Positions 11,401-40,694 of a DNA stretch of 41,620 nucleotides are shown one piece after another. How positions within the stretch are numbered: the stretch's first letter is position 1; each line of letters starts with the position of its first letter. The stretch is taken from the IMG/VR virus record IMGVR_UViG_3300011445_000041, positions 1 to 41,620 of that record; one strand, 5' to 3'. The notes under the pieces were generated by a model, which made no database searches, was not told the DNA's origin, and worked only from the letters and a program-made list of their open reading frames with translations. The position numbers and the translations under genes were made by a program. The stretch is from a virus.

Positions 11401-11492
11401 CCTCGATGATGGACAGCGGGTTCTTGAGCGGCATCTACTACGCAGCCTACATCGACCTGATGATGAAAGCTGAGGGACTACGTGAGCGATGA
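8430..11492 (+). CDS. Very large putative internal virion (DNA-ejection) protein, 1020 aa
   Basis: GTG start at 8430 overlaps the previous stop. The protein is helix-rich and basic. An early segment, SVLDFSADIWASPLSYITAG (about residues 131-150), resembles a motif that recurs in very large phage virion proteins. Residues ~530-760 contain amphipathic stretches, and the C-terminal quarter is Arg/Gln-rich. No lysozyme or transglycosylase catalytic motif could be read with confidence. Its size, its place as the last large gene of the late row, and the absence of a tape-measure pattern favour an ejection protein. Confidence 0.55.
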   Translation: MPLYDRLNAQQLPPLPPVDESSALDTIIQVARHTGIPQVVGLSFEGLKRADAAFRAGILTARGKIPTADFPQYWRDAWDGKLTDLTTSEFNKLFLGAAIYDQAKHQALIPGWTKKVLNPETHLTEDVPVISVGSVLDFSADIWASPLSYITAGGPGAVKALTKTPLWSPFRTMGRGIGVIDDYIFGTANKFPMLGNLLMHARELRHAFERWPNVTKDFETTRDTMNKALIDWAPKLHNILFREERALGIFKKSTHKYLPTEERRVMNHLFDLKLHLGGPLTTRESTLADEIMTTVGTPLISRLQSMGYYTRSRTPPLLSGLMPSLVNLRSIPADVLQSWDWKTLGWLGVPTYKSSKAAVLKKMQLREEHLDLSTAIRDLVYASEKKLHWNARHRESVTRTVTTATRVGTGGLVPRAGGASTQFAGATVARTSTFTRPGYKWVNDGPLLKYRPKKVTSAKGQNTNVVDWSSGERSYMVRLINEIQGRGRGRVTLELGELSRRAVFNLQDFAGRNRVTKYLFNRTFEEAGAKLSVYAKPQYATQFFVHNVVRSMLWGNLGAAVKNTSQLLNTAAVKGIPATIKGMFELSNPERYALAQTEVWHEFKKLLIDERWTARVGSRVDDLMMLPFNATENLARGTAFNVYLDDYMRKNRIPSFAALMTDPRREPAIRAAVHGAYDTNFIYGVLGRPASALGSPMMRPFTTLLSYGPKQLEFYRRAVKEDGSVLLRALGMHGLAIDLGNRWLGIAPEAWIGWGFAPPMQSIDGIPLMTSPQLRWGLDIARGFGALGAGNEAEASKHFRSAQGATGTVLALAPEFWHNYTTQPGLLPPGQELGRALLAAGPQLGALPVPIVAIAKAASILRGIKSMEGGMGQQLSQTGETWVPISRADLARSTLFQTTVSRQRQQLSQMTRDARGRVDRVLDERVRAYLTAAEDTNGDKLVEAGREMFSPIRISHGLVRQAPTTYSPLAEQIDSRMGRLIRGRNQSRDLTSMMDSGFLSGIYYAAYIDLMMKAEGLRER

Positions 11493-11752
11493 CCACCACG
11501 TCACAATCACGTGCTGTAATGCTGCTTGCGGCAGCGGTGCAGGCGCTTGCAGTAATCGCGCTCACCTATTGGGTCGGGCGAGTTGAGGGCATCGAAACCA
11601 AGCTCGATGGTCACGAAAAATGGTCCAACAATAAGGTCGTCGAATTTGAGAGTCGCATTCGCGCAAATGAAGAACGCAACAATGAAATTCTACGGCGCCT
11701 TGATCGAATCGAGGGCAAGCTCGACCGGCTTGATTTCCCAAAAGTAAGGTGA
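11489..11752 (+). CDS. Membrane-anchored coiled-coil protein, 87 aa (spanin-like?)
   Basis: ATG overlaps the previous stop. One N-terminal transmembrane segment (residues ~9-28, LLAAAVQALAVIALTYWVG) is followed by a charged helix with heptad pattern (residues ~40-82, FESRIRANEERNNEILRRLD). Signal-anchor plus coiled coil is the layout of inner-membrane spanins and of some holin-associated proteins, and the next gene is holin-like. No outer-membrane spanin partner was identified next to it, though a lipoprotein is encoded far away at 23132-23404. Confidence 0.55.
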   Translation: MTTTSQSRAVMLLAAAVQALAVIALTYWVGRVEGIETKLDGHEKWSNNKVVEFESRIRANEERNNEILRRLDRIEGKLDRLDFPKVR

Positions 11753-13413: not shown

Positions 13414-16371
13414 TCATTGTGTGTCTCTCCAGTTCGTACCTTGCGTGATCTTCGCCGGCACCATAAATCCCGGCGCGATCGCGGGCCATGGCTGTTCCAT
13501 GATAGCGCGTAGGCGCGCCGCGACTTCTTGTGCCCTATCGGGTGTTGATTCTATCACGATTTCGTCGTGGCAGAACAGCGTCGGGGGGCGTCCCGTGGCC
13601 CAGTGCGCGAGTTCGTGTACCTGTTGCATGCAGCGCCACAAGATGTCAGCGGCGTTCGAGCTTGGATGAAACGCCCAAATTTCGGGCGCAGCGGCCTGTG
13701 CATCATAAAAATAGCGGCGCCGGCCGAAGCGATTCTCCGCAAACCCGCACGTTTTCACCTGCGCCACTACGTCCTTGCGCCACCCCATTAGGCCTGCGTA
13801 CTCACGCTTGAATGCGCGCATCATCGACGCAACGTCTTCGTAGTCCACATCAAAGCCCTTGCCGAGCATCGTCTCGTGGATCTTCTTGGGGCCGGCGCCG
13901 TAGGTCGTATTTCCAGTAATCGTAATCGTGCCATCTTGCTTGACAAGCCAGAATCCAGTTATAACTTCAGGACACCACACATCGCCGTGTTCTAGCGGTT
14001 CCCACTGCACGCGCTGTCCTGTAATGTAACGACTCTTGCACGCTCTGATGTTGAGTGCCTTACCTGCTTTATCGTGATTACTAACTGCTGTTCTAATTCC
14101 ATGTAATGCAATCGCAAGCTGCATCGCATCGGCCAATTCGCCTTTATTCTGTCCAATTACAAAGGCCGCTGGTTGCTCATGTCCTTCACTAATTCGCACA
14201 GCATTAATGAATGCAGCGCGCTCAGTTGGGGTCATATTGAGCACATATTCAACCCAGTTCGTTTGCCATTTATGGTGCAGTTCAGTTCCTACACCATCAC
14301 CGCCGGCGAATGGTGCAGCAGTTACAATTGCATCTTCGTGGCCAATCTCACGAGAACGCAGCTCTCGATAAATAGGTTCATGATATTTCCAGGAACCGCC
14401 GCGCCATGATCTATACCGCATCGTCCACCAACGATGGTCAGCAGTACAACGATTACTCCATGATTTATGTCCAAGTCGCCCAAGTAACGCATTGGTATAG
14501 TGCACGATTCCGTTTAAGCGTTGCCACCCCAATGTATCGGTCACGGGGTCATACCCCATGATCTCGTCACCAACGCGAAGCTCGTTGTGCCGTTTCCACC
14601 CTGTTCGTGTAAGTGCTTTAGAATCAAGTGGCTGACAGCCGTAGTAGAAATTCTTCGCACGTGTGCGATCACACTTGAACAGCCCCGCATTCACCGCATG
14701 AATATCGCCCGAGATCGCCGACAGGAGCGCAGCATCTGTGCTGAGCGTCCCTGCGATCCACGCCTCAATCTGCGACCAGTCACCGACTACAAATACGTTC
14801 CCGGTCGCGTGCGGAATGAACATCGCTCGTAGGTGCTTGGGCACATTCTGGATGTTAGGATTCTGCGCGGACAGGCGCCCGGTCGCAGTCCCGTAGTTCG
14901 CGTCATCCTTCTGCACCGGAAAGTAGCTTGGGTGCACCGTGTCCGCGGCGCTCGTGAAATACGTGCTCAGCAGCTTCGAGTGCTCCCGCACTGCCAGCAG
15001 CGTCCGAATCACTTCTCGGGCGCGCTCGTCCGCGTGGCGCAACAGCTTGACCAGCGCGGTCTTCTCGGTCGTGATCTTGCCTTCCTTGTACTGTGCGGGC
15101 AGGCCCATCTCGTCGTAGAGGAGCTTCTTGAGCTGTGTTGGGGACGCAGCATTAGTAGTGGGGGCCAAGTGTGACCACGCGGCACGGGCCTCTTCGAGCT
15201 TCAGTTGCAAGCCTGCAGCCAGTTTCGTCCGCACCTCCCGATCCACTCGTACCCCCACCTCGGTCATGTCGATCAGTATCGGTAGACATCGCATTTCCAT
15301 CTCAAAAATGTCCAGTTGCCCAAGCTCCCGCAGCGCAGTTCGTTGTGGTTCGACCAGCGCAAGTGTATAGAGTGCATCCATTCGAGGGCGCTCAGGATTC
15401 GTAGTTGGTAGCGACTTGAACCTGGGGCAGTCGAGATAGAGGCTGCTCATGGTGTCGAGATTCTTTGCGAGATCCGGCTGCACCTTCTGCCCGGCCCACA
15501 TCGTGTCCCACACAGGCACATCGGCTGCGAACCCTGGTAGCTCGCGCCGAATATGAATGAGGTCAAACGACAAGTTATGCCCGACCAACAACTCTGCGCC
15601 CGTAAGCTCACTTAGCACCTGCGGGGGCGGGGGCCATGGGTAGCTGCACGATGCTATCCCCGTGGTGGTTGGCCCCGCGACCCCCACAAGCGTTATCGCG
15701 GAGGTTGCGTCGATGCCGTCGGTTTCGATGTCTACGCAGCGTGCGCCGGTGACCCACGCACTCTGGTCGTCAGTCGGTACACGGTGCAGGTCACCGCACA
15801 GGGCTCGCTTGACGCGCTCCACATCAGCCCACAAAAACGGCACCGGCTTGAGTCCTTGGCGCATGATGTATGCCGGATGCAACGACGGGATCACGACCTC
15901 ACATCTGGGCGGCAGGCACGGCTGAATGGTGCCGCCCTTCACCTTGATAGGAGTGGTGCATTCGTCGGGGCTGATGAGGTGCCCACGCCAGCGCGTGATC
16001 TCGCCCTTGATGCCAGTGAGCCGTAGAAGCGCATCGCCGCCGAGCGCGAGCACGACTCTGGCCCCGCTCGACATCACCTCATTTTCGAATCTGCTCGCAC
16101 ATGCCAGCCACTGCTCGGGGGATAGTTTCTTACCTGCACCAAGCACAGGGAAACAATCCGCCACGTTCATGACGCGTGCTTGATCTGGTGATAGCCCGGC
16201 TTCGTAGAACGCCCTCCACAACAGGCGCCCACTCGCACCTACGAACGGGCGCCCCTCGATCAGCTCATCACGGCCCGGCGCCATTCCAACTACTAATATC
16301 GGTGCGTTGAGCGGACCCGTAGACGCGCATGCCTGTTGCTCATCCCTTCGTGGGCAGTTACGACAATGCAC
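13414..16371 (-). CDS. UDG-exonuclease-DNA polymerase A fusion containing an intein, 985 aa (742 after splicing)
   Basis: GTG start at 16371. Residues 1-195 match family 4/5-type uracil-DNA glycosylase: GMAPG at 29-33, GRPFVG at 40-45, HPAYIM at 165-170, and early cysteines that could hold an Fe-S cluster. Residues ~200-390 look like a 3'-5' exonuclease (DIET, D214/E216; HNLSFD, D270); the usual Tyr of the third exonuclease motif is not evident. The polymerase follows: motif A GDWSQIE (D531), motif B RTRAKNFYYG|TTYGAG split by the intein, and motif C CHDE (D936, E937). UDG-PolA fusions are known from SPO1-like phages. This is the replicative polymerase candidate, next to the P-loop ATPase and just after an HNH gene. 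Confidence 0.85.
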   Translation of the reverse strand: MHCRNCPRRDEQQACASTGPLNAPILVVGMAPGRDELIEGRPFVGASGRLLWRAFYEAGLSPDQARVMNVADCFPVLGAGKKLSPEQWLACASRFENEVMSSGARVVLALGGDALLRLTGIKGEITRWRGHLISPDECTTPIKVKGGTIQPCLPPRCEVVIPSLHPAYIMRQGLKPVPFLWADVERVKRALCGDLHRVPTDDQSAWVTGARCVDIETDGIDATSAITLVGVAGPTTTGIASCSYPWPPPPQVLSELTGAELLVGHNLSFDLIHIRRELPGFAADVPVWDTMWAGQKVQPDLAKNLDTMSSLYLDCPRFKSLPTTNPERPRMDALYTLALVEPQRTALRELGQLDIFEMEMRCLPILIDMTEVGVRVDREVRTKLAAGLQLKLEEARAAWSHLAPTTNAASPTQLKKLLYDEMGLPAQYKEGKITTEKTALVKLLRHADERAREVIRTLLAVREHSKLLSTYFTSAADTVHPSYFPVQKDDANYGTATGRLSAQNPNIQNVPKHLRAMFIPHATGNVFVVGDWSQIEAWIAGTLSTDAALLSAISGDIHAVNAGLFKCDRTRAKNFYYGCQPLDSKALTRTGWKRHNELRVGDEIMGYDPVTDTLGWQRLNGIVHYTNALLGRLGHKSWSNRCTADHRWWTMRYRSWRGGSWKYHEPIYRELRSREIGHEDAIVTAAPFAGGDGVGTELHHKWQTNWVEYVLNMTPTERAAFINAVRISEGHEQPAAFVIGQNKGELADAMQLAIALHGIRTAVSNHDKAGKALNIRACKSRYITGQRVQWEPLEHGDVWCPEVITGFWLVKQDGTITITGNTTYGAGPKKIHETMLGKGFDVDYEDVASMMRAFKREYAGLMGWRKDVVAQVKTCGFAENRFGRRRYFYDAQAAAPEIWAFHPSSNAADILWRCMQQVHELAHWATGRPPTLFCHDEIVIESTPDRAQEVAARLRAIMEQPWPAIAPGFMVPAKITQGTNWRDTQ
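13909..14637 (-). mobile_element. Intein inserted in polymerase motif B, 243 residues
   Basis: The host protein reads ..KNFYYG, then Cys579 begins the insert (CQPLDSKAL), which ends ..TITGN at residue 821, and the host resumes with TTYGAGPKK. Joining the flanks restores the family A motif B. Splicing blocks are visible: N-terminal Cys with VGDEIMGYD (block A), CTADHRWW (block B, T-x-x-H) and DVWCPEVITGFWL..ITGN (blocks F/G). The penultimate residue is Gly rather than His; the +1 residue is Thr. Between them, residues near AAFINAVRISEGHE..QNKGELADAMQLA look like a reduced LAGLIDADG-type homing endonuclease. The segment is visibly richer in A+T than its flanks, which supports transfer. Confidence 0.9.
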
Positions 16372-16765
16372 GGCGCCGCCTTTGATGATAGGCCCGCTGC
16401 CATGCTAAATAACACGGCTTACACCGACGACCATAATGATTTCTGCGAATCAGATTCTCTTCATTATATTCGTGTCCTTGTGGGCAGTGCGTTTTGCGTT
16501 TATTTCGTGGCCCAACGCCGTCGCCACGCATAACATTAACTGCAAGTGTTACTTCTTCTAAATGATTCGGATTGAAGCAAGATCTGTGACGACAAAGATG
16601 ATCTAGCGTCATCCCAGCACAAATCTTTCGGCCGTGCCATTTTTCGAACATCAGTCGATGTAGATGTCGAGCAGATTTTTTATTTTCTCCACATAGCCGC
16701 CAAGTCACAATCGTGTAGCCAGTAACGTTCGGCTTTTGAATAGGGTATATACACGGCCCTATCAT
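16358..16765 (-). CDS. HNH homing endonuclease, 135 aa
   Basis: ATG at 16765 with GGGGATG upstream. The HNH core is clear: LDHLCRHRSCFNPNHLEEVT, preceded by a His-rich helix (ARHLHRLMFEKWHG). A C-terminal zinc-binding tail follows (CPQGHEY..CKPC) with an Arg-rich end. This is the layout of free-standing phage HNH nucleases. Its stop lies inside the polymerase start region (14-base overlap) and its DNA is richer in A+T than its neighbours, like the intein. It probably cuts homologous phage DNA near this site and spreads itself, perhaps together with the intein. Confidence 0.85.
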   Translation of the reverse strand: MIGPCIYPIQKPNVTGYTIVTWRLCGENKKSARHLHRLMFEKWHGRKICAGMTLDHLCRHRSCFNPNHLEEVTLAVNVMRGDGVGPRNKRKTHCPQGHEYNEENLIRRNHYGRRCKPCYLAWQRAYHQRRRRALS

Positions 16766-17542: not shown

Positions 17543-18025
17543 CTACTTGCCTAGGGTGAGCAGACTCCCGTTCTCATTTCCCCATGCCGCGGTAATCCCA
17601 AACAAGAAGGTGAGATTCCGCTGCGAATTATTGCCCGTGAACAGCCCGGTCCCGGCCCCGGCCTTCGTGTTGATGAGATCGTAGGTCGCGCCGACTGCGA
17701 GGTTCCCGAAGAAGCCCACAGCTACCCCAGCCTTCGCAGCGAACGCGTCCGTTGCGCTGTCCGCGCCCATCAAAAACGGGATCTCCAGCGACACGACCGG
17801 CACGTCCGCGGCATTCACCCAGTTGATCCCGACCTTCCAGCCCGCACCTTCTGTGAGCACATTCGTGTGGTACTCACCTGCATCATCCTGCCCAACCGCG
17901 AGGGCTGCGATCATCGGTCCGTGGGTCACGCGGGGCACGAGGCTCTCTGCGAACACGTCCCGCACGAACATAATCGCGACCAGTACAAGAATCACAAACA
18001 CGACGAACTTCATCGTCTTACTCAC
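17543..18025 (-). CDS. Exported small beta-barrel-like protein, 160 aa
   Basis: GTG start with an AGGAGG 6 bases upstream. Residues 1-26 form a signal peptide (KFVVFVILVLVAIMFVRDVFA). The mature part alternates Gly/Ala-rich beta strands with aromatic residues (WKVGINWV, AVGFFGNLAVGATYDL, NLTFLFGITAAWG), the pattern of a small outer-membrane barrel or a periplasmic barrel. It could alter the host surface, for example against superinfection; that is inference. It is the last of five exported genes in a row. Confidence 0.6.
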   Translation of the reverse strand: MSKTMKFVVFVILVLVAIMFVRDVFAESLVPRVTHGPMIAALAVGQDDAGEYHTNVLTEGAGWKVGINWVNAADVPVVSLEIPFLMGADSATDAFAAKAGVAVGFFGNLAVGATYDLINTKAGAGTGLFTGNNSQRNLTFLFGITAAWGNENGSLLTLGK

Positions 18026-18035
18026 AACGATCCTC

Positions 18036-19343
18036 CTATTCGATCACTGTCGTCTGATTAATCACCCCATGCCGCCACAACCACCGCTGCTGCGTTTCGA
18101 GCTGCAGCATCGGCCACCGCTCTCGCGACCGATCCGCAGTCGATAGCACCGCGCCACTCGGCACGAATCGCTCCGCGTCAATCACATCATCCTCTACCAT
18201 CTGACACCCAAGTTTCACCGTCGCGTTCCCATCGCGGAGCACCAGAAACGTCACGTCCACTATCGGTCCATCTGGCTTTAGTGCGCGCCATCCGCCTTGC
18301 GTGAACCACATCACTTTTGCGGCTGCTGAGTCGAGGCCGCAAATTGCTGTCACGCCACCACTTAGCATGGTCCAATCAATATACCCATCCGAGCCCAACA
18401 CGCGTCGGTCGCCGCCATCGATCACCTGTAGCGTATCGACTCCCGGCTCGTCCTGAGGCAGCACCCGCACCGCGCTCGTCTTCCAGCCCGGTCGCGGCTG
18501 AATGTTCACCAGTAGCAGCTCGTTCGCTTCCCACACGAGCGTGAACCCGATCGAGTCGTTGTTCGCAATCGCATATGGGAACCAGTCACTCACGGTCACG
18601 GTCACGTTGTCGTACTTTGCGGCGCTGATCGACGCAGGTAGCAGCGTGATGGCAGTTTGGAGACTTTCGGGATTCGAGGCAAAAAAGTCACCCTTACCCT
18701 TCGTATCCCCCGTGATGATCGTGCTCGACGAGACCATCGAATAGTTCGCGGTGTCTGTTGCGATCGCCGCATGATAATCATCTTCGATCTCCCAAATGAT
18801 CCCGGCCGGCTTGCGGTCGTAGTTCCCATCTGCGACCGTCGCTTCCACGCAATTCGCGATGGTATCGGTCCACGCAAACACTGCGGTTCCAGCCGCGATC
18901 GCAGTGAATTCAAGCTTGAAGTCCGCCTTGAAATCCCCGAAGCGGCGTTCGCGTGGCCGATGCGACCACGAGATTCCGCCAATCGCAACATGCGCCGCAC
19001 TTGGCGCAGTCTCGCACTCGGTTGTTCGCGCGCTCCCGTCCCGCATCTCCGAGATTCGCACCTCGTCGTACGGGTCTTGAATGCGCCCCGTAGGGCGCAC
19101 CAGGGTTGAGTCGTAGTAGAAGCTCCCGCTGAAGTTCAGCAGCGTTCCGCTTTCCACATCCACTCCCGCACGTACCCAAAAGCTCCCACCGGTTCGCGCG
19201 TGCGCTGGTGCATCCACCAGCACTGTTGCTGCTGCTGAGTCCGTTGCGTGCACAGTTTCCCCGTCGTAGACCAACACCGGGTCCATTGGGGCCGGCGCCC
19301 TGGCCGCGATCAACCCAAGCGCCAAAATGAGCCACTTTCGCAT
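18036..19343 (-). CDS. Secreted protein with two cohesin-like beta modules, 435 aa
   Basis: The start at 19343 is chosen for its GGAGG 7 bases upstream and the signal peptide that begins there (MRKWLILALGLIAA); the frame is open 23 codons further up. Module 1 (about residues 35-200) carries GSFWVRAGVDVESG..FYYDSTLV; module 2 (about 245-405) has a similar strand order (VTVTVSDWFPYAI..GFTLVWEANELLLVN). The YDST signature and strand order recall bacterial cohesin domains and related Ig-like folds. No dockerin was seen. The role is unknown; it may work with the glycosidase-like neighbour, whose C-terminal half has the same kind of modules. Confidence 0.6.
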   Translation of the reverse strand: MRKWLILALGLIAARAPAPMDPVLVYDGETVHATDSAAATVLVDAPAHARTGGSFWVRAGVDVESGTLLNFSGSFYYDSTLVRPTGRIQDPYDEVRISEMRDGSARTTECETAPSAAHVAIGGISWSHRPRERRFGDFKADFKLEFTAIAAGTAVFAWTDTIANCVEATVADGNYDRKPAGIIWEIEDDYHAAIATDTANYSMVSSSTIITGDTKGKGDFFASNPESLQTAITLLPASISAAKYDNVTVTVSDWFPYAIANNDSIGFTLVWEANELLLVNIQPRPGWKTSAVRVLPQDEPGVDTLQVIDGGDRRVLGSDGYIDWTMLSGGVTAICGLDSAAAKVMWFTQGGWRALKPDGPIVDVTFLVLRDGNATVKLGCQMVEDDVIDAERFVPSGAVLSTADRSRERWPMLQLETQQRWLWRHGVINQTTVIE

Positions 19344-19354
19344 CTTAACCTCCG

Positions 19355-22342
19355 TCATTCGCCCCAGGTGTACGTGAGCCCTTTGTGGTACAGAAACACG
19401 TAGTTCAGCCACGCATGGCGCGCGGTCTCGTAGACGTATGTCGCGCCCTTGCTGAGCGGCACGTTCCCGTAGTTGAACCGTGTCCAGCTCTGCTTGACCC
19501 CGTTTCCGATGTACGTGAACGGCCGGCCGGCGCCAGGCACCAGCTCGTTGTCATACCCGGCAAGCCCGATCTCGAACACGTCCTGGCAGTTTGCCACGAA
19601 CCTGAACGTGGCGGCGGCGCCGGCTATGCTCACCTTGGCCCCGTTGATCTTGTAGAGCCTGAACCAGGCGAGCTTGCTCGTGATGCTTGGTGGCGATGAG
19701 CCCAACCATCCCCTTGAAATTCTGTACGAGAGCGCACCTGCGCCTTGTGGCGAGGCGTCGTAGTCGAAGATGACCTCGAATCCGTCGAATGGTGATCCGG
19801 CTCCGGCGGCGGAAGCAACGAGTCTCTGCCAGTTCGCGGGGTCCTCGTCGCACCAGCTTGTGTACTCGACGAACCCTTCGATGCTGCTCACCGAGTCTGC
19901 CCAGACGCGCATGGTGACGGTCAGAGTGTCAGACACGCTCGCCGTCGAGTCGTTCGCCGAGAACACGACCGCAAGCGGAGCACAGTACGTTGCCCCCACT
20001 TGCGCCCCGGTTCCAGCGCCGCCTTCCTTCGGCGGGTGCCCGTCCCAATTACCAGCGTCGCACCGGCTGGTATTCACGCCAGTAGCTACGATCACTGCGT
20101 CGGAAACCGTGTGCCACGCGCTGTTACTTGGCGTAACGTACGTCGTTCCAGCACTATTCGTGATGATAGCAGCGCCGGTATTTGCACTATTGAACACCGA
20201 AAACATCGTTGTGCAGGCACCATTCAGTCCGTTCGCTCCGAACTGGTGCCGGGTGAGATCAAAGTCGGCAGTTGTGACTTGCGCTGATCCGGTCGCGAAC
20301 GGGAAGAACTGCACCCGTCCGATCATCTGCGAATCTGCGCTCGCGCTGGTCTTGTCATAGAGCATCCACAGATCAGCGTCCGCGAGCTTGGTGCCCTGCT
20401 TCGGGTCTCGAATCGTGATGTCGTCGAACTCTGCCATGCATCCGCGGGTCGCGGGTGCGCCCGTGAAGTCGTATCGCACTGGCATCACGCGGGTCGAGTC
20501 GTAGAACACCTTAATCGCTGCTGCGCGCCACGGGGCCGCGCTCCGCACCCACACGTCAGCCCAGAAGGCCGTCCCAGCTGCAACCGTATCCGGCACCGCA
20601 ACACGCACATAGTAGTTGTTGTCCGGCGCACCTGCAGCGCTCAGCACGATGAGGCCGCTTGCAGCAGGCATCTGGAACGTCTCGACCGCTGCCTGCAGCG
20701 ACCCGTCCGGCAGCACCTTCTGGAACATCGGGCTACTGTTCATATCCGGCGGATCGACTAGAACGCTCGTGAGCACCGAGTCGCTGGTCGTCGCCCCGGA
20801 GTCCATCGTTCGAACAAACACCTTGCCGTTGTCGTAGTCTCGGCGCCAGATTTTGTACGCTCGCCCGTTGACCGTGCTGCCCTGGTGCAGCACCAGATCC
20901 CCAATCGGTTCCCCGAGATAGCACGCGGCGGTCGAGTCTTGAAGCGCGTCCCACATCGGGAGCGATGTCGTGTTGACATAGCATGCGTCCCAGTCCGAGA
21001 CGCACGGATTCAATACATCGCCAACAGCATCCACGTGACAGGTTAGTCCGCCGTACGTGTTCTGGCGCCCAACTAGCGGGCTGAACTCGGTGCCAGGATC
21101 GCCTTCGACGGTCGATGCCGTTGCGTAGGCGAGTGCCCCGAGGCCGTAGAGGCTACGCTGGATTGACACACAGAGCGCGGTTGGGGATTCGGTGCATTTC
21201 CGTCCGCCGAGCACGTTGACCATCGAGGCGCTGACAACCAGAGCATTCTTGTTGCTCAGTTTCTCGCGCTTGTACATGAGCATCGGCCAGTCGATGTTGC
21301 CGGTGCTGTTGCCGCCGATCTCAAGCGCGCCGTTGTATTCGAGCACGGCGAAGTCGAGCAGGTCCTGCCTAAACAAGGAGTCCTGGTATACCGGGATGCT
21401 CGTGCAGCAGGTGTCGGCGAAAAAGAATCTGCTGCCGTCTCCAGCCACGTTCCTAGCCAAAAACTTTTTGGGATCCTCGGCGTTGAGGCTGTCTTTTAGC
21501 TCTTTGCAGAACACGTTCCACTTGCCGGGGCCGCGAAGCCAGCGGTTGAACCCGGTTGGCTGTCCAGACGGCGGCGGCTGCGTGATGCCTTGCTGGTAAA
21601 CAACTGTTGGTCCGGCTTCCTGGAAGTGGCCGCCGCTGAGCACAATACGGTCTTGGGGGTCAACGGCGTTGAACCCCGCGTTGTCCAGAAAAAGGCCGTC
21701 TGGGAACACGTCAGTTCCGCCAGGAAGAGGCTCGCGGGCGAGCGACAGGAGAAAATTGCGGTAGGTTGCTCTTGATAGCGGGTTCTTGAACGTCGTGATC
21801 CAGCGCGGGGCACTAACACCGACAGTTCCGCCCGCGCAGTTCACGAAATCGTACATAGGAACCTTGGAGCCTGGCAGGTACGTCTTGTCGAAGCAGCCGT
21901 AGCTGTTGGCGCAGCTTCCGGCGCACGGGACGTTGCTGCACGTCGCCGGAGCGGCCCAGGGGGCGCAGCGGAAGTACCTGACGGTGGTAGTGTCAGAGAA
22001 GTGCAGATACAGGTTCTCTGCCACTGAGTCTGGGAGCCCTTGCGCGGTCACGTATGCCCGCCACTGACCGTCGGCCGTGAACTGCGGCGTCGCCCCTCCG
22101 TTCGTGTGACTCGTCGGGCTGAAGTACCGCAGTACCTTCAGGTCGGGGTTGATGAGCTTTGCCGCCCGGGCACCGGCGCTGTAGCTGTACGAAATGTCGA
22201 AGCTCGACAGGTGCTGAACAAGCGAGTCGTTCGCGCACTCAAGATAGATTGGCGAGCTGAACCCAGGTGACGCGGCCACTCTATGAGCTGCAGACGCCAC
22301 CGCCAGAGCGACCAGGACCGCGAGAAACCACTTGAACCGCAT
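19355..22342 (-). CDS. Secreted glycosidase-like protein with cohesin-like modules, 995 aa
   Basis: The start at 22342 has GGAGGT upstream and begins a signal peptide (MRFKWFLAVLVALAVASAAH). Residues ~25-480 resemble GHL15-type TIM-barrel glycosyl hydrolases: strand PDLKVLRYFSP, then DGLFLDNAGF (residues 215-224) whose Asp residues are at the expected catalytic strand end, and LLDFAVLEYNG further on. Residues ~565-770 and ~800-990 are beta modules; the first shares VFYDSTRV with the FYYDSTLV of the next gene. Many Cys pairs suggest an oxidised, extracellular protein. Activity and substrate are not known. It is the largest leftward gene and an unusual cargo for a phage. Confidence 0.65.
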   Translation of the reverse strand: MRFKWFLAVLVALAVASAAHRVAASPGFSSPIYLECANDSLVQHLSSFDISYSYSAGARAAKLINPDLKVLRYFSPTSHTNGGATPQFTADGQWRAYVTAQGLPDSVAENLYLHFSDTTTVRYFRCAPWAAPATCSNVPCAGSCANSYGCFDKTYLPGSKVPMYDFVNCAGGTVGVSAPRWITTFKNPLSRATYRNFLLSLAREPLPGGTDVFPDGLFLDNAGFNAVDPQDRIVLSGGHFQEAGPTVVYQQGITQPPPSGQPTGFNRWLRGPGKWNVFCKELKDSLNAEDPKKFLARNVAGDGSRFFFADTCCTSIPVYQDSLFRQDLLDFAVLEYNGALEIGGNSTGNIDWPMLMYKREKLSNKNALVVSASMVNVLGGRKCTESPTALCVSIQRSLYGLGALAYATASTVEGDPGTEFSPLVGRQNTYGGLTCHVDAVGDVLNPCVSDWDACYVNTTSLPMWDALQDSTAACYLGEPIGDLVLHQGSTVNGRAYKIWRRDYDNGKVFVRTMDSGATTSDSVLTSVLVDPPDMNSSPMFQKVLPDGSLQAAVETFQMPAASGLIVLSAAGAPDNNYYVRVAVPDTVAAGTAFWADVWVRSAAPWRAAAIKVFYDSTRVMPVRYDFTGAPATRGCMAEFDDITIRDPKQGTKLADADLWMLYDKTSASADSQMIGRVQFFPFATGSAQVTTADFDLTRHQFGANGLNGACTTMFSVFNSANTGAAIITNSAGTTYVTPSNSAWHTVSDAVIVATGVNTSRCDAGNWDGHPPKEGGAGTGAQVGATYCAPLAVVFSANDSTASVSDTLTVTMRVWADSVSSIEGFVEYTSWCDEDPANWQRLVASAAGAGSPFDGFEVIFDYDASPQGAGALSYRISRGWLGSSPPSITSKLAWFRLYKINGAKVSIAGAAATFRFVANCQDVFEIGLAGYDNELVPGAGRPFTYIGNGVKQSWTRFNYGNVPLSKGATYVYETARHAWLNYVFLYHKGLTYTWGE

Positions 22343-22411
22343 TGGAGACCTCCAGTTAACCCTTGGCACAGCGTTGCCGAAACGATTCTAGTCCGTTCTG
22401 GCGGTAAATGT

Positions 22412-23119
22412 CTACCTGTAAAGCCCCTTCACGCGCTGCCACGAGGTCGAGGCGAGTGGCTTCTCGGTCACATTCTCGCACTCCGGCTTACACCCTGCTG
22501 GCCCATTCCCTACCGAGCGCAGATACGACTTCGAGTAAACCGCAGAGTATGCAATCCCGCAGGCGTCCGAGATGTCCGCATGCCAGATATACGCTCCAAC
22601 GCCTCCACCGTAAAATGGCGGCGGGCCCTCCGACGTACAAACCCCCGTAAATGGCACATGGTTGCTCGAATACTGCCCGAGATAGAATGTTGGTTCGGGC
22701 GCACTGTTTAACCACGCATGGATTGCGGTATTCATTGGCCCGTCTGCATCGTTCGGGGTCGTCAAGTGATAAACCCACGAGTCATTGTATTGACTCCCGT
22801 ACGACCGTCCGACGAGCGTAAACAACGCCCCCGGCGTAAACCACTCCGACCCATCGCACTCGTTCGTCCCGCAGTCGAGATAGACGTAGAAATCAGTAAA
22901 CCACCATTCAGGCCGGTGGTCGGACGCGAGATCAGTCCCCGTATGACACCGAAGCCCGCTCCCATTACACGCAACCCCGCCGTCATACTTCGAGACCGTC
23001 ATCCAAATCTGCCGGGTCGAAGTACGTACAACCGCATCCCCTGCGGTAGCCTTCCCGCTAACTCCCCACGACGTTGCAGCGCTTGCAGCGAGCATCAGAA
23101 TTGCAAACAGAAACTTCAT
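22412..23119 (-). CDS. Secreted Cys-rich protein, 235 aa
   Basis: ATG with AGGAGG 7 bases upstream. Signal peptide at residues 1-19 (MKFLFAILMLAASAATSWG). The mature protein has about ten Cys, many Trp and Tyr, and a segment YIWHADISDACGIAYSAVYS. It looks like a folded, disulfide-bonded extracellular domain, but no family was recognised. It sits between the lipoprotein and the glycosidase-like gene and shares their strong Shine-Dalgarno pattern. Confidence 0.55.
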   Translation of the reverse strand: MKFLFAILMLAASAATSWGVSGKATAGDAVVRTSTRQIWMTVSKYDGGVACNGSGLRCHTGTDLASDHRPEWWFTDFYVYLDCGTNECDGSEWFTPGALFTLVGRSYGSQYNDSWVYHLTTPNDADGPMNTAIHAWLNSAPEPTFYLGQYSSNHVPFTGVCTSEGPPPFYGGGVGAYIWHADISDACGIAYSAVYSKSYLRSVGNGPAGCKPECENVTEKPLASTSWQRVKGLYR

Positions 23120-23131
23120 GTCGATTCCTCC

Positions 23132-23404
23132 TTATTTCTCCTGATCCACGACAATCCCGCCCATGATATGCACACGCTTGCCGAAGGCATTGAGAAACGC
23201 CGCATCCGTTGGCCCATAGTCCACCGTGCTCTTCGTCTCCCATTCTGCAATGACATCACCGTCGTAATCATAGACGATGATCGTTCGGTACAGCCCATGA
23301 ATCTCGCTGTCGCAGCCCTTGAACGCCTGATCGCATCGAGCGCAGCTCATCAGGAGCGGCAGGCAACCAGCAAGAATCCACTTAGACCTGTTTCTGATCT
23401 TCAT
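23132..23404 (-). CDS. Small lipoprotein, 90 aa
   Basis: ATG at 23404 is preferred over GTG at 23413 because TGGAG lies at the right distance. The N terminus is Arg/Lys-rich, then hydrophobic, with two Cys that could be lipidated: ILAGC (Cys14, a perfect lipobox but a short hydrophobic core) or LLMSC (Cys21). The mature part has more Cys and a short beta domain (TIIVYDYDGDVIAEWE). Phage lipoproteins often act in superinfection exclusion or as outer spanins; either is possible here. Confidence 0.55.
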   Translation of the reverse strand: MKIRNRSKWILAGCLPLLMSCARCDQAFKGCDSEIHGLYRTIIVYDYDGDVIAEWETKSTVDYGPTDAAFLNAFGKRVHIMGGIVVDQEK

Positions 23405-23517
23405 GTTTTTCACTCCAATCCATCGCTTCTCTCAACACACGGGCACACTTGATGTCGCTGGCACGCTTGGCCGCCAGCTCGGCGGCAGATTCCTGGAAAT
23501 GCCGTTCTCTCGGTCAT
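23383..23517 (-). pseudogene. Possible short gene interrupted by a +1 shift
   Basis: ATG at 23517 overlaps the previous stop (ATGA). The direct frame gives an unlikely peptide. If one base is skipped after the third codon (at GAG-A-GAA), the frame reads an ordinary helical protein (FQESAAELAAKRASDIKCAR and onward) to a TAA at 23383, overlapping the lipoprotein start. Either a real frameshift, a sequencing indel or chance. Confidence 0.3.
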
Positions 23518-23786: not shown

Positions 23787-24059
23787 CTACCCGTCTCCGC
23801 TGCTCCCCTTCACCGTAAATCCAGTGAGTATACCGCCAGGCCTACCATTAAGCGGTCGTATCGGCGCTCGAAGCTCTGTCCCATCAGCGTTGGTGGTCGG
23901 TTCATCCAACAACACACCAGACTTCGGGCTGATGAACACGAACCGCTCACCACAAGCCGCGCACTGTATACGCACCGTTGCCGAGAAGGCGTAAACGTCA
24001 GTGATGCGGTCAACATCGACCTCGGCCTGGAAGTCTGGATGTGAACAGTCGAGCCTCAT
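23787..24059 (-). CDS. Zinc-binding phage protein, 90 aa
   Basis: The start at 24059 overlaps the previous stop (ATGA). Ligand-like residues are DCSHPDF at the N terminus and CAACGERFVF in the middle, typical of a small family of phage proteins that use C-x-H and CxxC to hold zinc. The C-terminal part is Gly/Pro-rich. Function unknown. The stop lies inside the direct repeat. Confidence 0.55.
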   Translation of the reverse strand: MRLDCSHPDFQAEVDVDRITDVYAFSATVRIQCAACGERFVFISPKSGVLLDEPTTNADGTELRAPIRPLNGRPGGILTGFTVKGSSGDG

Positions 24060-24247
24060 TCGCCGCTCCTCACCTTCTTCAGAAACGCCTCGACCCTGCG
24101 CTCGAAGTCGTGCGTGCCGCAAGTGCACGGCTTCCACGGTTCAGCTCCGGTTGGCCTACGGTCGTTGATCGCGCACTTGTATTCGTGTGGCAGGTCGTAC
24201 TGATCCATCTCCCGCAACAGCGCGACGGCCTCTTTTTTCGCGCTCAT
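24056..24247 (-). CDS. Zinc-motif mini-protein B2, 63 aa
   Basis: The start at 24247 overlaps the previous stop. Helix KEAVALLREMDQY, then CTCG and a C-terminal helix FERRVEAFLKKVRSGE. It is a clear paralogue of the protein at 24646-24918, which ends YVRRVEELLKKVGSGE after CDCG. Confidence 0.55.
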   Translation of the reverse strand: MSAKKEAVALLREMDQYDLPHEYKCAINDRRPTGAEPWKPCTCGTHDFERRVEAFLKKVRSGE

Positions 24248-24492
24248 TTCGCCCTCACCTTCGCGAACCAAGCGTGCACCTTATCCCAGTAGTCCTTATA
24301 GACCGACCCGTGGCGCGGATCGCGTAGCAACTCCTCCGCCTCTTCGAGCAGGAGAATTGCGTCGTGGAGTCGGTCGCGAATGAAATCTCCACGAGATAAT
24401 ACAGGCGTCGGTTCAGTCCAGTATCGTTCGCACTCGTCCATCAACGTCCCTGCCCGCCCCCGATGCACCTTCCCGCAGATCGCGCAGTTCAT
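24244..24492 (-). CDS. Zinc-motif mini-protein A2, 82 aa
   Basis: The start at 24492 begins MNCAICGKVHRG, identical over 12 residues to the protein at 24915-25175, which fixes the start of both. CxxC plus His suggests metal binding. The middle helix ILLLEEAEELL also matches. A second copy of a two-gene module. Confidence 0.6.
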   Translation of the reverse strand: MNCAICGKVHRGRAGTLMDECERYWTEPTPVLSRGDFIRDRLHDAILLLEEAEELLRDPRHGSVYKDYWDKVHAWFAKVRAK

Positions 24493-24581
24493 GTTCCAGC
24501 TCCGTAGATTCTCAACGGACACCAGCGGTAGTTGTGCGCCATCGACCCACACCGCTTACAGCGAGGCCTTTTTGCCCTCAT
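24489..24581 (-). CDS. Tiny CCHC zinc-knuckle peptide, 30 aa
   Basis: ATG at 24581; stop overlaps the next start (ATGA). The peptide contains C-x2-C-x4-H-x4-C (CKRCGSMAHNYRWC), the exact spacing of a zinc knuckle known from nucleic-acid-binding proteins, flanked by Arg/Lys. The Shine-Dalgarno is weak. It has no counterpart before the other A copy. Too short for certainty. Confidence 0.4.
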   Translation of the reverse strand: MRAKRPRCKRCGSMAHNYRWCPLRIYGAGT

Positions 24582-24645
24582 GGGTATTCCACCCATCCAT
24601 CGATTCTCTCACAGGGACCGTCGCACTCGGCTTCCGACTACCCGG

Positions 24646-24918
24646 TCATTCGCCGCTCCCCACCTTCTTCAACAACTCCTCGACCCTGCGCACGTAGTCA
24701 ACCTTGCCGCAGTCGCAGTAGGCCTCTCGGAATTTGTGAAGTCCAGGAATAGACTTGCACCAGACTGGCCCCATTCCCTCGTACTTCTGCATTTCCCGCA
24801 GCAGCGCGATAGCCCCGTCGGCCAAATCACAGGCGTTCTCGAACTCGGCGGCCATGTTCTCACCGGCGCCGAATACGTCGTTGAATCTAGCGCGCAGCTC
24901 GTCGATTTTCGAACTCAT
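24646..24918 (-). CDS. Zinc-motif mini-protein B1, 90 aa
   Basis: The start at 24918 overlaps the previous stop. Helices ARFNDVFGAGENMAAEFENA and ADGAIALLREMQKY, then YCDCGKV and the shared C-terminal helix. Paralogue of the protein at 24056-24247 with a longer N terminus. Confidence 0.55.
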   Translation of the reverse strand: MSSKIDELRARFNDVFGAGENMAAEFENACDLADGAIALLREMQKYEGMGPVWCKSIPGLHKFREAYCDCGKVDYVRRVEELLKKVGSGE

Positions 24919-25175
24919 TCCACCCTCGCCTTCGCCAGCCACGCCAGCGCGCTCCTTTGATCGTCGCTCAGATCGTAGTATTTCGACGCCGGTCCTAGAA
25001 CTAAGCGGCAATTCAGTGCCTCGATGATCTCCTCCGCCTCTTCGAGCAGGAGCACCACGCCATGAGCGATCATCATCTGACGCGACGGCGGACCAAGCCA
25101 GATGTATTGCTTATTGTCGGCGAGTTCATTCCACAACTGCCCCCGATGCACCTTCCCGCAGATCGCGCAGTTCAT
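24915..25175 (-). CDS. Zinc-motif mini-protein A1, 86 aa
   Basis: Starts MNCAICGKVHRG; ATGA overlap with the previous gene. The shared helix VVLLLEEAEEII and a C-terminal helix LAWLAKARVE match the A2 copy (HAWFAKVRAK). Function unknown. Confidence 0.6.
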   Translation of the reverse strand: MNCAICGKVHRGQLWNELADNKQYIWLGPPSRQMMIAHGVVLLLEEAEEIIEALNCRLVLGPASKYYDLSDDQRSALAWLAKARVE

Positions 25176-25435
25176 GGCTTCTCCCCATCCAGGAAGGCGT
25201 CAATGTCGTCCAAAATCTCTACCTCCGTGTCAACCCTCTCGCCGGTGCCAGTATCAACAAAGTCACCTTCTGCATTCCACCTTTGCAATCTTCGCAACAG
25301 CGTGATTGCCTCGTTGGCGAGTTCTAATGTCTCCTCAATCGGAGGCTCCCAGTAATTACTTGCGATGCCTGTCAGCGTCGCCAACCACTCTTCGGCCGTG
25401 CCGGTGCGCTCGCCAAAGTCAAGGAAATCGGTCAC
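25172..25435 (-). CDS. Small acidic helical protein, 87 aa
   Basis: ATG overlaps the previous stop. It has the helix LANEAITLLRRLQRW, which aligns with ADGAIALLREMQKY of its neighbour, so it is probably a distant member of the same set without the cysteines. C terminus is very acidic. Confidence 0.5.
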   Translation of the reverse strand: MTDFLDFGERTGTAEEWLATLTGIASNYWEPPIEETLELANEAITLLRRLQRWNAEGDFVDTGTGERVDTEVEILDDIDAFLDGEKP

Positions 25436-29252: not shown

Positions 29253-29664
29253 TATCCACCGCTTTCGTGTGCATTCGATTTTTGTACCTTGCGCGATTCC
29301 ACTGTCTCCACACACGCTTCTCGGGCGCATCCGGCGTGATCTCGCCGCTCCTGATCCCCTCGTCTACCACCACCTTGAGGCGTTCGACGGTTGCGTCCTT
29401 GAGCGCTCCCCAGATCACCTCGGGTGCGCTGAGGCCGCTCTCAGCCGTGAGCCTGTTCACGAGGTCCATCCACTGACGCCGGGGCCGCGTGCGTTGGTGC
29501 CGGTTCGGCATCCAGCCGAGCCTGTGCCAAACTTCGGTGACTGTCTTCGGGCTCACGTTGAGCGCCTGCGCGATCTTGTACATGCTGATCCCGCGCTGGT
29601 ACGCGGCCCATGCTTCGCGGCCCTCAGCCTCGGTCAGGTACGGGCGCCCCCGGCCAGATCTCAT
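29224..29664 (-). CDS. Helix-turn-helix DNA-binding protein, 146 aa
   Basis: ATG overlaps the previous stop (ATGA). N-terminal HTH: AAYQRGISMYKIAQALNVSP and TVTEVWHRLGW (residues ~20-52); the rest is helical and basic. It resembles the divergently encoded HTH protein at 30308 (GLSVPKIGKAVERDPRTIR..LKRLGY). Probably a regulator of this or another operon, or a DNA-binding replication factor. Confidence 0.6.
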   Translation of the reverse strand: MRSGRGRPYLTEAEGREAWAAYQRGISMYKIAQALNVSPKTVTEVWHRLGWMPNRHQRTRPRRQWMDLVNRLTAESGLSAPEVIWGALKDATVERLKVVVDEGIRSGEITPDAPEKRVWRQWNRARYKNRMHTKAVDNGTSSSNSE

Positions 29665-30056
29665 TCGCTGTCCCCGATCGGGAACTTCCTTGACAGCTGC
29701 GCATGTGTGATCAGTTTTTCTACGTAGTTCACGTACAACAGCAACGAAGCATCATCATCGTGTAAGAGGCCTTTTGGCACGAGATACTGGTAGATTGCTG
29801 CAATCAACAGCTCGTATTTACGCACCGCTGTCTTTCGACAAAAGTCGTTGAGCTGCTCCATCAGATCCGCCGGAATTGCGGCCGTGTAGTTCACCGGATA
29901 CTTTGCGCGCGTTTCGATCGCGTTCAGCATTCCCTTCGATTTTGGACGGGGCAAAATTGACCTCCGCGTGATGAGTCGGTAGAGCCGGTCGGACATTTCG
30001 GCTGGTTTGATGTCTCGGGCCTCGTACGCTGCCTGCTCTTCGAGCGTTCGTCGCAT
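29661..30056 (-). CDS. Ribbon-helix-helix-like regulator, 131 aa
   Basis: First gene of the long leftward train; ATG with AAAGGAG 7 bases upstream. Residues ~50-95 (VNYTAAIPADLMEQLNDFCRK, then RKYELLIAAIYQYL) match the strand-helix-helix pattern of MetJ/Arc-type repressors. Basic N terminus. Position behind a palindromic control region suggests autoregulation. Confidence 0.55.
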   Translation of the reverse strand: MRRTLEEQAAYEARDIKPAEMSDRLYRLITRRSILPRPKSKGMLNAIETRAKYPVNYTAAIPADLMEQLNDFCRKTAVRKYELLIAAIYQYLVPKGLLHDDDASLLLYVNYVEKLITHAQLSRKFPIGDSE

Positions 30057-31508: not shown

Positions 31509-31757
31509 CTAGCTCCCTACGCAGAACGGACACTTGGTCGTGCGGTGCCACCAGCGGCGCGGGCGGCCCACTTGAATGATGCCGAATAGGTCGCGCAGGA
31601 CAGTGCCGCTATTTTGGCACAGTTGGCACGTCTTGTTGCTTTCGCAGCGTTCGCAGAGGACGCTCCACCACTCGGCGGGGCGCTCGCAGCGTTCGCATTT
31701 TTCGCTGAGCGGGCGTGGGTCGTCAATTATGCGGTCCAATCCCTCTCCTCGGGCCAT
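31509..31757 (-). CDS. Four-CxxC zinc protein, 82 aa
   Basis: The start at 31757 (MARGEGLDRII) is chosen over the longer frame to 31862 because the upstream part is coded better in another frame. Four CxxC pairs (CERC, CERC, CQLC, CPFC) are regularly spaced, as in double zinc-ribbon or DnaJ-type folds. Trp/Arg-rich linker before the last pair. Function unknown. Confidence 0.5.
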   Translation of the reverse strand: MARGEGLDRIIDDPRPLSEKCERCERPAEWWSVLCERCESNKTCQLCQNSGTVLRDLFGIIQVGRPRRWWHRTTKCPFCVGS

Positions 31758-31919
31758 AATCTGTTGAACTCTGCTACTGCTACGTTGTAATCGTCCACGC
31801 TCCATGCTGTACGACCACCATGTCGCATGACCCGATTCGCTGCATCTAGTGCAGCAGCCCACGCGATCTCACGTGTGAGTCGCGGCGTTGTGGGATGCTT
31901 TTAGTGGATTAGCACCCAT
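31727..31919 (-). pseudogene. Small gene with a one-base shift at an A4 run
   Basis: ATG at 31919 overlaps the preceding stop. The direct frame closes after 16 codons. If one A is removed from the four at 31899-31902, the frame reads on for 62 codons as a good protein (LTREIAWAAALDAANRV, then AWSVDDYNVAVAEFNRLWP) to TAA at 31727. Such sequence is typical of small phage proteins, so this is a real gene with either a mutation, a recoding site or a sequencing error. Confidence 0.5.
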
Positions 31920-32112
31920 GGCTGCACCCACTTAACCAACCATGGGACTTCCAGTGCTCAAGTGCTTTAAGCATCTGTTCAGGTTGCCTCGGGTTCCGTA
32001 ATGCACGACAATCCGTGTCGCAACTTACAAACGGGCATGGCTCTTCGTGTGCTCCCGGTTTGTATTGTTGCTCTGGGTCACACAGGCAACCAACGGGCGT
32101 CCAGCTTTTCAT
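31909..32112 (-). CDS. Cys-rich small protein, 67 aa
   Basis: The start at 32112 overlaps the previous stop (ATGA). About eight Cys (CLCD, CPFVSCDTDC, SGCSHGC) and no signal peptide, so probably zinc-binding. Function unknown. Confidence 0.5.
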   Translation of the reverse strand: MKSWTPVGCLCDPEQQYKPGAHEEPCPFVSCDTDCRALRNPRQPEQMLKALEHWKSHGWLSGCSHGC

Positions 32113-32588
32113 GCTCCCTTCGCTTTGATACGACACCACAAAATCGCCTGCCAGGTCGCGGGCGGGATCTCGCGGCGTTCGGCCTCGCGTCGCACGCGTT
32201 GTGCGAGCTTCTTGTACTGCTTCAGTGTTGGCTTCTCGCTGTGGCGGTAGTGCCTGCACATCCAGGTGTCGATCACGACCGCGTTGTCGTTGCCCATCAG
32301 CGCACGGTAGAAGGCGCGTATTTTGGGCCCTCGGAGCACATCCAGGGGCGCTTCCCCTGCGAGGATGCGTAGGGCGCGGTCACGTATGATGCGCATCCCT
32401 GGCACGCCTTCGCCGCGGAGGGCGCGTTCGGCTTTGCGCACGTTGCGGCGCCACTCTTCGCGTTGGCTGCACACTGCGATCACGCCGGCAACCATCGTAG
32501 GTGGACGGGCGTAGATGTCCGCCAGCCCCGCTACGATCGCGCGGGCGTCGCTGTACCAGCGCCAACCAGCGCAGTCTGCGCTGTTCAT
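32109..32588 (-). CDS. Phage protein with DNA glycosylase-like pattern, 159 aa
   Basis: The start at 32588 overlaps the previous stop. Helix-rich; the segment VLRGPKIRAFYRALMGNDNA followed by VVIDTWMCRHYRH resembles a family of phage proteins with helix-hairpin-helix-like folds (a K..fy..l.G..-vviD.w pattern as in HhH-GPD glycosylases). The family assignment is tentative; a DNA-repair or DNA-binding role is an inference. Confidence 0.5.
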   Translation of the reverse strand: MNSADCAGWRWYSDARAIVAGLADIYARPPTMVAGVIAVCSQREEWRRNVRKAERALRGEGVPGMRIIRDRALRILAGEAPLDVLRGPKIRAFYRALMGNDNAVVIDTWMCRHYRHSEKPTLKQYKKLAQRVRREAERREIPPATWQAILWCRIKAKGA

Positions 32589-34772: not shown

Positions 34773-35119
34773 GGTGGAGCTGTCGTAAGCTGCTGGGCGC
34801 CTGCGAGGTGCTCATGCAACGCGACGATTGTGCCCTCAAGCTGCGCAAGCTGAATGACGCAACTGCACAAAACACATTCACTTGGCGCGATGGGGCCGCG
34901 AGCAAAATTACGCTCGTGGTGGATCCCGCGCAATCGAGCTTGGTAGAGGGCTTCCTACACGAGGCCCTTCATGTCGTGCTGGCTGAGGAGATTGGGGAGC
35001 ACTTCAACGAGGTGGCCGAGGAGTGTGTGATACGCGCCCTCGAAGAGCACCTGTGGCGCAAGACGATGCGTCGGGAGGATACCGAACGGTGGCGTCAAAT
35101 CATAAACGCGCGGCTGTAA
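34769..35119 (+). CDS. HExxH metallopeptidase-like protein, 116 aa
   Basis: TTG at 34769 overlaps the previous stop; ATG at 34814 with GAGGTG upstream is an equally good start. The motif LHEALHVVLAEE (about residues 63-74) is an HExxH zinc site followed by acidic helix EVAEECVIRALEEHL, as in small phage metallopeptidase-like proteins. Substrate unknown. Confidence 0.55.
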   Translation: MRWSCRKLLGACEVLMQRDDCALKLRKLNDATAQNTFTWRDGAASKITLVVDPAQSSLVEGFLHEALHVVLAEEIGEHFNEVAEECVIRALEEHLWRKTMRREDTERWRQIINARL

Positions 35120-35517
35120 TGGCGTGGGTTGCGGGGGTCGTGGACGGCGAGGGGTGCCTCGACTACACCTGCGCAGCCCGCACGGTCAGGCTACGAGTGA
35201 AAATGACGCACCTGACTACGATCAAAAAACTGAAGCAAGTGACGGGTGTCGGGAACGTGCGTACCTACCAAACCGGAAATGACCGCCGAGTGTGGGAATG
35301 GTGTGTTGTGGGTCGTGAGGAGCTACAGCGGCTGCTGTGCGCGCTTTTGCCCTATAGCGTGACGAAGCTGCGCGAGATCGAAGCGGTGCTCGCGTTCTTT
35401 GTAACTAGCCCGCTGCACCCAGGAGTGCCATACTCACCTCGGGAGCTGCGCGCTCGTGACCGGCTCTACAAGCGCCTGAGGCGCCTGAAACATGAGGGAT
35501 GGCGTGACGAGAAGTGA
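35119..35517 (+). CDS. LAGLIDADG homing endonuclease, 132 aa
   Basis: ATG overlaps the preceding TAA. N-terminal WVAGVVDGEGCLDY is the LAGLIDADG motif with the acidic catalytic residue; then TIKKLKQVTGVGNVR and a C-terminal helical part, as in single-motif free-standing enzymes, which act as dimers. Ends 26 bases inside the terminase gene, a typical place for a homing endonuclease that spreads near a conserved late gene. Confidence 0.75.
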   Translation: MAWVAGVVDGEGCLDYTCAARTVRLRVKMTHLTTIKKLKQVTGVGNVRTYQTGNDRRVWEWCVVGREELQRLLCALLPYSVTKLREIEAVLAFFVTSPLHPGVPYSPRELRARDRLYKRLRRLKHEGWRDEK

Positions 35518-40685: not shown

Positions 40686-40694
40686 GGTTGAGAG

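Follow-up and report, generated by a model that had tools for sequence, protein, structure and literature searches.

As a rule, phage proteins with a role outside the cytoplasm are encountered singly. Llp of phage T5 excludes superinfecting phage, and the exported morons of lambda-type phages may do likewise. In lambda itself, the outer-membrane protein Lom and the lipoprotein Bor are exported envelope proteins, dispensable for virion assembly, that come from single scattered genes and have no enzyme-like partner. Viruses are also known to encode glycoside hydrolases with proven activity, among them a permafrost GH5 endomannanase (PMC6786970) and a soil viral chitosanase (PMC9485262). The locus described here lies in a virus record of 41,620 bases, the whole of which we call the window. 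Its products resemble Lom and Bor in being exported and dispensable for virion assembly, but they match neither in sequence, and they form a run of five that includes a conserved pair. No matching case turned up in a literature search for exported blocks of a comparable kind.

Results

The block consists of five adjacent leftward open reading frames, 17543-23413 (-), in the place where an earlier reading of the DNA, made without database searches (the sequence-only reading), had proposed five consecutive exported proteins. In transcription order, P5 to P1 are followed by the endolysin gene, two small ORFs, an HNH gene, polA and the primase gene. The features discussed below are:

23132..23413 (-): P5, small lipoprotein of 93 aa, or 90 aa from the ATG at 23404; lipobox LMS/C
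22412..23119 (-): P4, secreted Cys-rich protein, 235 aa
19355..22342 (-): P3, secreted protein, 995 aa
18036..19358 (-): P2, secreted protein, 440 aa, or 435 aa if the start is 19343
17543..18025 (-): P1, exported protein, 160 aa
17071..17535 (-): endolysin gene, M15-like, with an H-x-x-G-x-A-x-D motif (phrog_465 endolysin, E=2e-6)
13414..16371 (-): DNA polymerase A with an N-terminal UDG domain and an intein-like insertion; in the relative G002, polA adjoins the P4-P3 pair

The successive junctions from P5 to the endolysin gene measure 12, 69, -4, 10 and 7 nt. Strong Shine-Dalgarno sequences precede P4 (AAGGAGG), P3 (CTGGAGG) and P1 (TAGGAGG), and P2 has one as well (ACGGAGG) if its start is 19343, the alternative being 19358, which overlaps the P3 stop in an ATGA and has the poorer Shine-Dalgarno. 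P5 has GGAG. A promoter and terminator scan gave a signal no higher than that of shuffled sequences.

Export was called by a hydropathy and charge heuristic (10-residue hydrophobic core, net positive N-region), not by SignalP, and this check flags every one of the five. Four N-termini are signal-peptide-like (P1, MSKTMKFVVFVILVLVAIMFVRDVFA before ES; P2, MRKWLILALGLIAARAPA before PM; P3, MRFKWFLAVLVALAVASAAHRVAA before SP; P4, MKFLFAILMLAASAATSWG before VS) and P5 has a lipobox (...WILAGCLPLLMS before C), all cleavage points being read by eye. Among the 53 called ORFs of the window seven are flagged, and the longest run is exactly P1-P5; the other two stand apart from it, 29489-29710 (+) lying opposite the leftward genes, in antisense, and 35089-35517 (+) being only weakly flagged. 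Convincing export signals within the window are confined to the five block genes, and the chance of five scattered exported genes forming one run is about 2e-5. The proposal of five consecutive exported proteins is thus borne out, the run being unique in the window.

The same script was applied to a relative from another metagenome (IMGVR_UViG_3300031576_000555, 48,004 bases, hereafter G002) and to lambda, phiKMV, SIO1, BPP-1, MW202455, MW202489 and part of MaInes. The longest runs of exported genes in G002 and the seven other phage records (one partial) were 0-2, against five here, which agrees with the expectation that such a block is unusual in phages. The only run of two called by the script resembles a spanin-type pair; the G002 homologues of P4 and P3 (P4h and P3h) form another once the start of P3h, miscalled by the script, is corrected. 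Cysteine accounts for 37 of 1808 residues in the mature block proteins and for 74 of 8375 in other phage proteins (2.3x, Fisher p=8e-5), an enrichment expected for a location outside the cytoplasm, and the mature counts in P2, P3 and P4 (4, 22 and 8) are even.

The window encodes a terminase, a portal-like connector, a primase, a Sak4-like annealing protein and an exonuclease-like protein, and the leftward train that carries the block also encodes the endolysin, polymerase and primase, so that the label 'early' given to the operon in the sequence-only reading is tentative. G002, the only relative found with P4, has the order P4h, then directly P3h, polA and primase, while its homologue of P1 (P1h) lies directly upstream of an Amidase_2 endolysin gene, the P1-amidase pair being about 4 kb from P4-P3. 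Shared proteins other than P4 are about 25-37% identical between the two phages (blastp: terminase 31, portal-like 33, polA 36/33, primase 31, Sak4 25 and exonuclease 26%). Because G002 keeps P4-P3-polA-primase and P1-endolysin while the conserved proteins of the two genomes are 25-36% identical by blastp, the block is phage DNA and old. No counterpart of P2, P5 or the P3 modules after aa ~570 was found in G002, and on this comparison of sequences the block is a composite, in which a conserved pair, P4-P3, and a second pair, P1-endolysin, are combined with P5, P2 and the C-terminal modules of P3. The idea that the five genes make up one fixed system is not supported: G002 keeps the P4-P3 order and the P1-endolysin adjacency, at separate places.

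Other searches for relatives returned little. A pattern scan for P3 relatives in viral contigs and GTDB genomes found none, tblastn searches with P1-P4 against phages and with P3 and P4 against plasmids gave nothing of note, P1h and P3h had no matches in phages, profile searches of the PDB were empty or gave chance matches, and a terminase alignment run against GTDB as a host search found none. The nearer relatives by terminase (45-48%), L012 (G001, 17.9 kb) and L004, are fragments that seemingly do not cover the block region; G001 yielded no P3, and the viral relatives L003 and L004 are without the block region or fragmentary. In the window, a capsid-like ORF (40690-41620, +) runs off the right end and has no in-frame continuation at the left end, from which we conclude that the record is incomplete.

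P4 is by far the most conserved protein common to the window and G002. It is 72-73% identical to P4h (31579-32283), with 67% nucleotide identity, whereas terminase, portal, polA, primase, P3 and P1 reach 28-37%, and all eight cysteines of the mature protein are conserved (8/8). At the four-fold degenerate sites of conserved residues, 0.39 are the same against 0.32 expected at saturation (n=67). Since these sites are near saturation, strong constraint is likely and we judge recent transfer of P4 unlikely; with two sequences compared, an older exchange followed by saturation may have taken place. P4 had no match in Pfam, PHROG, NCBIfam, PADLOC, the PDB, phages or plasmids.

P3 has a glycoside-hydrolase-like region at aa ~25-570 followed by two extra modules at aa ~570-955, and its aa 1-568 are homologous to P3h (blastp 4e-39). 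The sole Pfam match in the hydrolase-like region, at its C-terminal end (YKIWRRDYDNGKVFVRTM), is to GHL15 (PF14885; profile positions 236-271, 49 residues aligned, E=0.024), at 15.0 bits against a cut-off of 27, a score that falls short of family membership; neither P3h nor six-frame searches gave a GHL15 match. Both phages keep D220 (F-x-DNA) and E335 of P3, within the motifs DGLFLDNAGF / RGIFADNAQW and, later, LEYNG / MEFEG, residues which we take to resemble the two acids of TIM-barrel hydrolases. These motifs suggest a TIM-barrel type for aa ~25-570 and a catalytic role for the two acids. The structure model of the region (pLDDT 30) is uninterpretable. The glycosidase label proposed earlier for P3 is supported in part, by the conserved acidic motifs, by general features of the family and by the sub-threshold GHL15 match.

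The two C-terminal modules of P3 and those of P2 look cohesin-like by eye, and the sequence-only reading had called them cohesins shared by the two proteins. The first label fails, PF00963 giving no match to the P3 and P2 modules up to E=10. The second is weak: the first C-terminal module of P3 and the N-terminal module of P2 show a marginal likeness (1/40 shuffles reach the score), and the other P3/P2 pairs show none above shuffles. Between the two modules of P2, at aa ~216-240, a single dockerin-like half-repeat (GDTKGKGDFFASNPESLQTAITLL) can be seen by eye.

P1 is 28-29% identical to P1h (E=1e-9) and immediately precedes the endolysin gene in the window and in G002 alike, the endolysin being M15-like here and of the Amidase_2 type in G002; this adjacency is the best functional clue for P1. 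The mature protein has no Cys. Its low-confidence model (pLDDT 38) is an eight-strand meander, compatible with a small barrel, and the best Foldseek matches (E>=0.065) are not significant; the earlier beta-barrel label finds partial support in the export signal and the eight strands of this low-confidence model. Spanin profiles matched neither P1 nor P5, and no recognisable spanin pair occurs within the window. At the end of the late operon, 11489-11752 (+) encodes a holin-like candidate of 87 aa that has a single membrane stretch at its N-terminus and a charged tail resembling a coiled coil; with this gene present, P1 need not be the holin.

P5 belongs to phrog_2316 (E=8e-9), a phage lipoprotein family, by both profile and lipoprotein signal. 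A homologue with 37% identity occurs in the Lysinibacillus phages LysYB1/2, that of LysYB1 also having a lipoprotein-type N-terminus. Because the family is thus present in phages of a Gram-positive host, P5 is by that token not a spanin.

The neighbourhood of the block has further features. The polA of the window has an intein-like insertion at about aa 579-823 (YYG/CQPLDSKALT...ITGN/T) that is absent from the G002 polymerase, where the alignment is contiguous; the HNH gene (16358-16765) adjoins polA. In both phages (G002 polA, 10761-13514 of L005) the family A polymerase begins with a fused uracil-DNA-glycosylase-type domain. Tandem paralogous small ORFs with common repeats of 24-66 nt occupy 24056-25176 (-), and one of them, 24056-24271, has a relative within a G002 gene (4581-5309 of L005, E=2e-8).

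Discussion

An action of the block on the envelope or outside the cell, as the sequence-only reading had supposed, is plausible. P1-P4 matched no known family, apart from the sub-threshold GHL15 match of P3, and the anti-phage defence profiles of PADLOC matched none of P1-P5. In the reading that we prefer, though with rather less than even confidence, the proteins would be an exported kit acting on the host envelope or on extracellular glycan and tied in part to lysis. During infection the leftward non-structural operon would supply them, and the Sec pathway of the host would export them. The old core of the kit would be P4-P3, in which a disulfide-rich, extremely constrained P4 is joined by a secreted, glycoside-hydrolase-like P3 that diverges fast, both acting at the host surface or on its extracellular glycan, with the lipoprotein P5, P2 and the extra P3 modules as additions of the lineage. 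P1 would probably be an outer-envelope helper, of the small outer-membrane barrel type, of lysis or of the phage-altered surface, which presumes a host with an outer membrane; the link to lysis covers only P1, since P1 is not adjacent to P4-P3 in G002. By binding and degrading or masking surface or extracellular glycan, the kit would keep virions released from a lysing cell from being trapped on debris, and perhaps it would also exclude other phages. A bolder version, which we think improbable, is that P4 is the founder of a new family of disulfide-rich effectors secreted by phages and stays nearly constant because it binds an essential, conserved target on the host surface, with P3 as its fast-evolving, glycan-facing partner, the whole being a dedicated extracellular system of an undescribed phage lineage.

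Several other accounts of the block have to be weighed. Multi-modular secreted proteins of similar look are common in bacteria, and host DNA could have been joined to a phage contig through assembly error; however, P4-P3-polA-primase recurs on an independent contig from another metagenome, a synteny by which we rule this out, the tight or overlapping junctions continue into the endolysin gene, and the GC and third-position GC of the block match those of the rest of the phage. A misjoin is thus extremely improbable. If the genes are the phage's own, they might be a nutritional set of auxiliary metabolic genes, in which secreted P3 degrades environmental polymers with its binding modules and P2 as accessories and so feeds the infected cell. 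P3 is exported, glycoside-hydrolase-like and multi-modular, and active enzymes of this kind are encoded by viruses, as the GH5 endomannanase (PMC6786970) and the chitosanase (PMC9485262) show. Yet the best conserved protein is P4 and not the enzyme-like P3, two distant phages share P4-P3 as an old, fixed pair, and GTDB genomes contain no near relative of P3 at the sensitivity of the scan, where a borrowed host enzyme might show one; we therefore consider a nutritional role unlikely.

We are equally doubtful that the block serves mainly in superinfection exclusion or surface conversion, with exported proteins coating or altering the infected cell and blocking adsorption or injection by other phages. 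A lipoprotein, a possible small outer-membrane barrel and secreted proteins from a non-structural operon would suit that role, and the comparable lambda pair, Lom and Bor, is flagged by the same script. Against it, the block shows no homology to exclusion proteins, PADLOC, PHROG and Pfam being silent for P1-P4, and the genes examined include no recognised integrase or lysogeny gene, so that conversion of a lysogen is not indicated. It is less likely still that all five are late breakers of the outer envelope that replace spanins. The position of P1 directly before the endolysin gene in both phages and the window's want of a recognisable spanin pair speak for such a lysis-only kit, but in G002 P4-P3 sits beside polA, about 4 kb from the P1-amidase pair, and P3, with its 995 aa, greatly exceeds the known spanins and disruptins in size. 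The reading as an exported kit with a P4-P3 core is the one that we retain.

The constraint on P4 exceeds that on terminase, portal and polymerase, which reverses the usual pattern of accessory genes evolving fastest and points to a surface job important to these phages; the conservation of P4 suggests that this job, at the surface of the host cell, is one not recognised so far. About 6 kb of the 41.6 kb is given over to exported proteins, and P4 and P3 offer a small, testable target in a lineage that has no close relative in the collection of isolate phages searched.

Set against described proteins, several members of the block resemble something known in part. P1, like spanins and disruptins, is exported and endolysin-adjacent, but it does not match them in sequence, and in its model it looks all-beta where they have a coiled-coil, a proline-rich segment or an amphipathic helix. 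P5 shares sequence family and lipoprotein signal with the phrog_2316 proteins of LysYB1/2, in a different gene neighbourhood. P3 has in common with GHL15 proteins the weak match at the end of its hydrolase-like region and motifs of TIM-barrel type, at a score below the cut-off. It is also, like the viral endomannanase and chitosanase (PMC6786970, PMC9485262), a glycoside-hydrolase-like protein of an environmental phage, but it can be assigned with confidence to no glycoside hydrolase family, and its partner is the highly conserved P4. Exported phage proteins and virus-encoded glycoside hydrolases are thus known kinds; what sets this locus apart is that five such genes form a run, that distant phages keep the P4-P3 pair, and that P4 is the most conserved protein which these phages share.
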